A stretch of 64,000 nt of DNA from Calditrichota bacterium (GTDB lineage: Bacteria; CLD3), in assembly GCA_008501735.1 (NCBI GenBank), contig QQUF01000022.1:1-64000 (forward strand), read 5' to 3'. The translations under genes were made by a program, and so were the position numbers. The notes under the pieces are model-generated. The model saw nothing but the letters and a program-made list of their open reading frames with translations. It was not told where the DNA came from and did not search any database. Below, one piece after another: positions 9,019-11,290 of this stretch (positions within the stretch are counted from its first letter, which is position 1; every line of letters begins with the position of its first letter).

Positions 9019-9042
9019 CTAACGGACTAAAGCCCGCAATCC
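8987..9042. repeat. Palindromic repeat, type A copy 1
   Basis: Left arm 8987-9008 (GGATTGCCGACTTTAGTCGG then TT) and right arm 9021-9042 (reverse complement GGATTGCGGGCTTTAGTCCG then TT) form an inverted repeat with three mismatches. Each arm also holds a small hairpin around TTTA. The right arm overlaps the end of the GNAT gene, including part of its stop codon. A perfect relative lies at 48470-48520. Confidence 0.8.
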
Positions 9043-9501
9043 TAAATCGGGTTTTGCTTCTACAAAAAAGTAAATGTGAGTTTCCTTGATTCCGTTTGAT
9101 TTTACAAAACCTAAAGATTCGTAGAACAAAGCGGCAGAAGGATTGTCTGTGTAAAGCCTGAGTCTTGTGAAATGATTTTGTGCAAATGAGATGATTTTTT
9201 CTAAGAGTCGTGTTGCCAAACCCATTCTTCGATATTTTTTGGAAATGTACAAATGCCGAACTCGACCTAATTTTTCATCATTGACGTAAGGGTCAATGTT
9301 CAAACCTCCAATTCCGATGCACAAATCAGAATCGAAAATGCCGAAAAGAATTTCGCCTTTTTTAGAAAAATCATTCTTTCCCGATTTCCACTCAAGAATT
9401 GTCCTTTGAACAAAATTATGACCTTCCAACTCTGCTTCTTCGGCGAGAGGTTTTAGGGTGTGGAGATTTTGGGTTGTGATTTGGAAATAATTAAAACTCA
9501 C
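9019..9501 (-). CDS. GNAT family N-acetyltransferase
   Basis: The 160-residue protein has the GNAT core: RVRHLYISKKYRRMGLATRLL contains the acetyl-CoA binding R-x-x-G-x-A loop around residue 92, followed by the helix after it and DNPSAALFYESLGF, the typical late motif. The substrate is unknown. The last residues (GLRALVR and the stop) are encoded by the right arm of a palindromic repeat, so the natural end of the protein was probably replaced by the element. The ATG at 9501 is the only sensible start. Confidence 0.87.
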   Translation of the reverse strand: MSFNYFQITTQNLHTLKPLAEEAELEGHNFVQRTILEWKSGKNDFSKKGEILFGIFDSDLCIGIGGLNIDPYVNDEKLGRVRHLYISKKYRRMGLATRLLEKIISFAQNHFTRLRLYTDNPSAALFYESLGFVKSNGIKETHIYFFVEAKPDLGLRALVR

Positions 9502-9522: not shown

Positions 9523-11290
9523 TTAGAACATTTTTAATTGTCCAGAATTTTTAGGGATATGAGCATCTTTAATATGTAACTCTTTTTGTAAGGATTCTAG
9601 AATCTGCTCTGTTGTCTGCTTCTTTTCGACAGTTTTTCTGTTATTAAAATCAAGCCCTAATTCCTTACTTTGTAAAAAAAGAGTCGCTTTCTTAAATATT
9701 TCAAAAGCTAAGTCATTATTTCTCAACACAATAAGAATTTCGTCACAACAACTTTTTATACTCTTCCTATTTAATAAATTTGGGGCTTCTTGTTTTACTA
9801 TTAAATACCTAAAGATTAAAAGAATTTGATATCGAAATCGCCATGATAAAGAGTTAATTTTTTTTTTGATTATAGAACCCTTCAAACATAAAATATGATA
9901 AAGCACTTGTGTAGTAAGGAAGAAAATCATGTTCCTTACTAAATATGTCTTCTCCTAAATCTTTCGTTAATTTTCCATAATACCCCGCAACTATGTGTGG
10001 TTTATTTAAAAACATTGCAGAAAAAACTTTTATTTGTCTTTCCTTACTAACAATTCTATTCATTGGAATTTGAGAACTTTTAAATTGATTTGTTCTGCGT
10101 TCATAGTAAAGCTTATATTTGTTATTATCTAGAGATTCATAATATGATTCCAAATCTTGTTGAAAATCAGTTAGAGCTTCCAACTCAACAGCATTTACAG
10201 CTGTTTGATTATTTGTTGCTCTTGTTATTTGTGATTTGATTTCTGATTTATCAGTTACGATTATCTTTAAAGGTATATGCATATTCTCAATATCTTTTAT
10301 ATTCCTGTTTTCATACAAAACATTACTAGTTTGACATCCATTTACAACTTGATAATTTTTAATTGTAAGGTTGTCGCCTGCGCCAGTAATCTCATCTGCA
10401 ACAACAGTTACACCATTATTCAAAATGCAAAATGCGTCTAAGGCTCCTTTCTTTATCGTATCTGCTATATCAGCATTAACAAGGTTTCCATTATCTAAAT
10501 AATCACGAATATTATCATTAAATACTGATTTCATTTTTCCAGAATCGTCAAGAATAATTTTTTTAAACTCAGAAAATGGAATTAACCCCGAATAAGCTAC
10601 TTTAATTTCTGGAATTGTTGGAATTGTAACTTTTCTTTCAAAGACTATTGATGCTTCAACAGGGTCTTTTGTTTTCCTATATAATTTTTGAATTTCTTTT
10701 GAACCACAAGGATTGAAATTTACTTTACCGAACAGTCCTAAATCCTCAAGCTCTTTTAAATTACTTGATACAATTTCTGTTAAATTTTCATCAGCTACCC
10801 ATCTACCAGTTGTACAGAAATAGAGACTACAAATAGGACTTCTCAATTTCATAAATTTAGAATTATGATAAATAAAGTTTTTCATCTCAATAAAGTTTTT
10901 CATCTCATCGGTTTTAAAAGATTCCTCAGAATCTCCAAAGTATATTTTTGTCCACCTAAAAAGATTTTCTATTGATTTTCCTTCAAATTTTGGGGAAGTC
11001 TTTGCTTGTATCAAAACAAAATTTACTGTTAGTTCTCCGTTCAATTCAATTAACTGCTCAATCTCTTTTACAGAATTACATAATTTATTATTTACAATAA
11101 TTCCGATACCATCAATGCCTTGTGTTTTAGGGCCTGTAGAAATTTCTTTCTCATCGAAAGAAACAGAATCCCACTCTTTATTTATTATGCAATAATTTAT
11201 AAATAACTCAAATTTTTCGCTTTCAATTTGAGTTGTGTAATTTTTACTTTCTACAAATTCTTTTAAAAAACTATTCGTAATTGTATCCAT
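9523..11290 (-). pseudogene. AIPR family (abortive phage infection) gene, frameshifted at an A10 tract
   Basis: Two overlapping frames together make one AIPR-type protein. The first, 9854-11290 (478 residues), has the family landmarks IDGIGIIVNN, NFVLIQAKTS, NNGVTVVADEI, YQVVNGCQTSNVLYEN and ATNNQTAV. It stops right after a run of ten A (minus strand; 9858-9867). The second frame continues without a break from INSLSWRFRYQ to LKMF and ends at 9523. Removing one A joins them as QKKINS and gives a 588-residue protein, a plausible family length. AIPR proteins were first tied to abortive infection by phage; their mechanism is little known. The gene may be decayed, rescued by polymerase slippage on the A-run, or affected by a base-calling error. 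Codons look more A+T-rich (many ATA, TTA) than the neighbours, hinting at transfer. Confidence 0.8.

Follow-up and report, generated by a model that had tools for sequence, protein, structure and literature searches.

Among the closest described counterparts of the locus discussed here are bacterial genes read across a run of A by slippage. In Thermus thermophilus, slippage on nine A within dnaX leads to about half short product (PMC1088944, PMC5009743), and a two-ORF form of dnaX with 7-10 A is found in several genera, including Chlorobi (PMC3711429). Slippage can also restore genes that look broken: in Citrobacter rodentium, an A11 frameshift in tssM1 is rescued at the level of transcription, with mRNAs of 10-15 A measured, including -1 and +2 forms (PMC4256274), and in Blochmannia – an endosymbiont with a small, AT-rich genome and >100 A9+ tracts – genes frameshifted at poly-A are thought to be rescued in the same way (PMC3017870). 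In E. coli and Buchnera, the commonest insertion product of slippage is a single extra base (PMC5574713). The gene in question here belongs to the AIPR family, whose members are frequently, if not strictly, tied to restriction-modification or defence islands (PMC3506569).

The window, by which we mean the whole analysed stretch of 64,000 nucleotides, carries on its minus strand an AbiU1/AIPR gene – a predicted abortive-infection anti-phage gene – whose reading frame breaks at a tract of ten A (Table 1). The first-pass annotation had described a 478-residue AIPR frame that stops right after ten A and, with one A fewer, joins smoothly into 588 residues, and these points hold. The frame terminates as ...YNQKKN*, its stop lying one codon past the tract, while re-reading with nine A yields a 588-aa frame joined at QKKINS and stopping at 9523. 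The tract is the only A/T run of at least nine in the window, the tail beyond it stays open for 111 codons, and the 588 codons contain no further disabling mutation; the locus thus shows one mark of slippage genes, at least nine A/T at a frame junction with a maintained downstream frame.

Table 1. Features of the AbiU1/AIPR locus and its neighbours, in window coordinates
Feature	Position	Strand	Remarks
Upstream AbiU1/AIPR frame	9854..11290	minus	478 codons + TAA; N-terminal region and most of AIPR domain
A10 tract (frame-break site)	9858..9867	minus	T10 on plus strand; 9 (or 12) A would be in frame
Downstream AbiU1/AIPR part	9523..9858	minus	+1 frame, 111 codons + stop; conserved, mostly helical C-terminal region
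Upstream neighbour, ABC permease/M1 peptidase-like, 1161 aa	11377..14862	minus	function by sequence reading; not a PADLOC defence gene
Downstream neighbour, GNAT-like acetyltransferase	9019..9501	minus	function by sequence reading; not a PADLOC defence gene

The assignment to the AIPR family, also proposed by the first-pass annotation, is borne out by profile matches and by intact homologues with which the protein can be aligned. The upstream frame matches PF10592 (AIPR) with 159.8 bits (1.6e-46; profile 1-217/308) and the joined protein with 163.7 bits (profile 1-292/308), both above the gathering cut-off of 25 bits, by which the protein counts as AIPR. The PADLOC AbiU profile is matched by the upstream frame at 2.7e-109 (profile 3-455/537) and by the joined protein at 379 bits (E 1.3e-113), now over positions 3-536/537. 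The tail ORF (9523-9930) on its own matches the C-terminus of a Winogradskyella homologue with 44% identity (E = 2e-24). One continuous frame that includes the C-terminal region is what the gene lacks, being broken at the tract; on these matches it descends from the family but does not, as read, form an intact member. Of two structure models, the one built from four sequences (pLDDT 46.8) was discarded, and the other, of a homologue and from seven sequences (pLDDT 63.8), has reasonable tail helices at low to moderate confidence. A Foldseek search with the latter against the PDB returned nothing at E < 0.001, and sequence searches for solved relatives found none; we therefore claim no function from the fold.

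Comparison with homologues locates the extra base and shows what the break removes. Three close ones – from an uncultured Aquimarina, Winogradskyella psychrotolerans and a Winogradskyella MAG – are 73% identical to the upstream frame, each encoded as a single 576-aa frame, and 68-70% identical to the joined protein; in an alignment with them, the extra base falls in the A10. At this site they read ACCAATAAACT, AACAATAAACT or ACTGGAAAATT, with no long A run, and the window lineage appears to have evolved CAA AAA AAA ATT, with nine A in frame, which a tenth A then breaks. Across a wider set of 16 aligned homologues, with identities down to about 26% and including viral-contig, plasmid and phage Fels-2 copies, every one continues for 85-131 residues past the site. 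The case that the first-pass annotation had named against itself, that of homologues naturally ending at the first stop, was accordingly found in 0/16; the C-terminal region belongs to the protein as a rule, the protein does not naturally end at the first stop, and a natural short isoform is ruled out. The tail could in principle be translated on its own, starting at an ATG (9930) in the overlap with the first frame, but this found no support. In residues 1-375, dN between the window and its homologues is 0.18, compared with 0.44-0.55 in the tail, a tail/head ratio of 2.4-3.0 that falls inside the range between the intact homologues themselves (1.7-3.3). On these estimates the tail is faster-evolving in all of them, without extra acceleration in the window. 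Since the tail has not accelerated and no other disabling change is present, the break has either arisen recently or been tolerated, or else it is not real but a consensus error.

The gene seems to have come from elsewhere. Its high identity to marine flavobacterial proteins, the absence of an AIPR gene from the same-family genome G001 and its non-defence neighbours suggest a single-gene horizontal acquisition. In G001, the counterpart of the ABC permease/M1 gene likewise follows its ABC ATPase and is then succeeded by a different gene. PADLOC finds only generic ATPase and helicase matches around the window's gene, which thus does not sit in a defence island. The relatives in viral contigs include no close one, with three at 43-47% identity. 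Two further AIPR genes were seen to be interrupted: a divergent homologue in genome G079, between methyltransferase- and restriction-like genes, carries a short insertion with inverted ends TATGCACTTG...CAAGTGCATA (L006 about 2525-2630), and on Synechocystis pSYSX an IS4-family element splits the AIPR gene, which adjoins a type I restriction gene (L179 1935-4821). Such broken genes are consistent with a costly gene that is often lost.

Long A/T runs are rare in the host genome, with 16 distinct tracts of at least ten in 4.14 Mb, so the frame break does not fall on such a tract by chance. Coding sequence contains or adjoins nine A tracts of at least ten; the frame continues through five of them, and a frame break accompanies the other four, whereas all 15 coding A9/T9 tracts, surveyed in 1.89 Mb of stretches, are read through (4/9 vs 0/15, Fisher p = 0.012). 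Where the frame scan called a 'shift' at a shorter run, the site in most cases seems to be a normal junction of two adjacent genes. The excess of breaks at long runs fits instability, be it in the DNA or in base calling. In one of the four cases, a nucleotidyltransferase-like gene broken around an A11 (G000:C44:26779-26789), a TAA lies just ahead of the run, so tract length alone cannot restore the frame, and the gene may be an ordinary pseudogene; leaving it out gives 3/8 vs 0/15, with a hand-computed p of about 0.03. Elsewhere in the genome, an A10 (192692-192701) splits a proline-rich tail off a PP2C phosphatase (G000:C46:191913-193248), whose orthologue in G001 is a single 426-aa ORF with a hydrophobic, membrane-like end segment (L146).

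Evidence that slippage operates in this lineage comes from two other genes. The host's own dnaX carries an A10 (G000:C52:21046-21055; L131 2499-2508) in frame just after domain III, that is, at the gamma/tau boundary, and runs stand at the same boundary in the same-family genome G001 (A9) and in six genomes of the class (A10 in G003, G004, G005, G007 and G008, A11 in G006), with tau in frame each time (L132-L140). In all eight, both other frames meet a stop within 4-9 codons (22 in one G001 frame). The ninth genome, G002, has the reversed arrangement, a two-ORF form. The lineage's dnaX is probably expressed by conserved transcriptional slippage. The other gene encodes a polysaccharide deacetylase that is split at an A10 in the host (G000:C1:49343-49352; L182 1977-1986) and, in G001, at the A10 in the same place (C190, minus strand; L183), and is a continuous ORF in G003 and G009. 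Joining its parts in the host raises the Pfam score from 86.4 to 109.7 bits. Between the two genera the heads are 65% and the tails 56% identical, the tails giving a dN of 0.39 and a dS of 0.94, and both tails are coding-like. Given a conserved break with both tails maintained, routine slippage expression is the best explanation, and the deacetylase becomes a candidate new slippage-expressed gene. Together, the dnaX arrangement and the deacetylase break common to two genera suggest that the RNA polymerase of this lineage probably slips on A10, and they lend indirect support to an RNA-level rescue of the AbiU1/AIPR gene.

The best reading of the gene is that it is leaky and was down-shifted recently. 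At a probability of roughly one in two, we favour a real +1 frameshift that leaves mostly truncated protein and a minor full-length fraction made by slippage; the presence of the frameshift in the cells' DNA, RNA slippage at this gene and an effect on defence are what we infer. After horizontal gain of the gene, an in-frame A9 would have arisen in the window lineage and then expanded to A10, so that the final 111 codons fell out of frame. Most transcripts would now give a protein of 478 residues that lacks the conserved C-terminal region and is probably inactive or altered, while RNA polymerase slipping on the A10 would make minor transcripts with 9 or 12 A that encode the full-length protein; replication slippage could also bring the DNA back to A9. 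The frame is restored here by -1 or +2, whereas the deacetylase and the PP2C gene need +1 (11 A), as does dnaX of G002. As the usual slippage product is +1, we expect no more than a partial rescue of the AbiU1/AIPR gene. The tract is, moreover, private and missing in the homologues, so that the slippage site is not a conserved one and would be at most adventitious rather than programmed or selected.

The alternatives differ in whether the tenth A exists in the cells at all and, if it does, in what becomes of it. The first-pass annotation took base-calling error to be the main rival, with a true tract of nine A in an ordinary intact gene, and the data have since weakened this. The sequence is indeed a single base away from a perfect full-length gene, its tail is free of decay, ten A are hard to call, and four of the nine long coding tracts of the genome are associated with breaks; furthermore, as no 16S gene was detectable in the genome, the assembly is probably a metagenomic one, and variation may be hidden in its consensus. 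However, dnaX is held in frame with A9, A10 or A11 in the host's own and related assemblies, from which homopolymer counts at these lengths appear reliable. None of the 15 coding A9/T9 tracts is broken, and the deacetylase break recurs in two independent assemblies. An error would also have to be an over-call of nine as ten, the less usual direction, given that long homopolymer runs are usually undercounted. On balance an error is rather unlikely. Plain recent loss, in which the frameshift simply kills a costly defence gene without rescue, accords with the interrupted AIPR genes elsewhere (the IS4 element in the pSYSX copies, the small palindromic insertion in G079), with the missing tract in homologues and with the need for slippage by -1 or +2, which is rarer. 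Against it stand the unrelaxed tail and the lack of a second disabling change in 588 codons – although a very recent event would look alike – and the signs of A10 slippage in the lineage, which would lead one to expect some full-length product; we regard it as unlikely.

A mixed population could alternatively harbour a phase-variable contingency locus, toggled at high frequency by replication slippage, on with A9 and off with A10. It is plausible for such switching to act on a costly defence gene, the A10 tract lies in an otherwise intact gene, and breaks are enriched at long coding tracts, as if these were unstable. Yet switching is not conserved, the homologues having no tract, and there are just 16 such tracts genome-wide, which leaves phase variation distinctly doubtful. 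Programmed ribosomal frameshifting at the A run would yield the full protein too, and successive AAA codons do adjoin the stop codon. It was nonetheless dropped and is close to negligible: a shift of +1 (or -2) is needed, whereas A_AAA_AAx motifs favour -1, a shift that here runs into a stop after about 14 codons; no stimulatory stem-loop follows, the downstream RNA folding more weakly than its shuffles (z = +1.67); and the site is missing in homologues.

Should the leaky frameshift be real, polymerase slippage would set the output of a defence gene, providing a cheap near-silencing of a costly abortive-infection gene that remains recoverable. The lineage's apparent slippage on A9-A11 is the broader lead and is better supported than the AbiU1/AIPR case, and the deacetylase frameshift and the dnaX tracts suggest that genes of this kind in the lineage will be mistaken for dead ones by annotation pipelines. 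A wider and more tentative proposal, which we put forward as a possibility, is that slippage on A9-A11 serves as a standing expression mode for several genes – dnaX class-wide, the deacetylase in two genera – and so buffers A10 frameshifts in new genes such as AbiU, which would persist in a 4.1-Mb genome as low-output two-product alleles.

The frameshift is thus a phenomenon of a known kind in a new instance. Like the AbiU1/AIPR proteins described elsewhere, the joined protein spans the full AbiU profile and falls into the length class of intact homologues (565-619 aa), but its frame is interrupted after residue 478, and it stands without defence neighbours, whereas its relatives have restriction or other defence genes next to them (G079, Synechocystis pSYSX) or belong to a P2-like phage (Fels-2). 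With tssM1 it shares a poly-A directly ahead of a premature stop, an intact conserved C-terminal region in another frame and intact orthologues; for tssM1, however, slippage has been measured and both products are needed, while the AbiU1/AIPR case is known from sequence and requires -1 or +2. The Blochmannia genes resemble it in having a single poly-A indel in an otherwise intact gene, though the genome here has 4.1 Mb and only 16 tracts of at least ten. Closest to home, the lineage's dnaX has the same tract arrangement at the gamma/tau boundary as the A9 of Thermus thermophilus dnaX (PMC1088944, PMC5009743). In dnaX, slippage is conserved and used, whereas the AbiU tract, though of the same kind, occurs in this genome alone.
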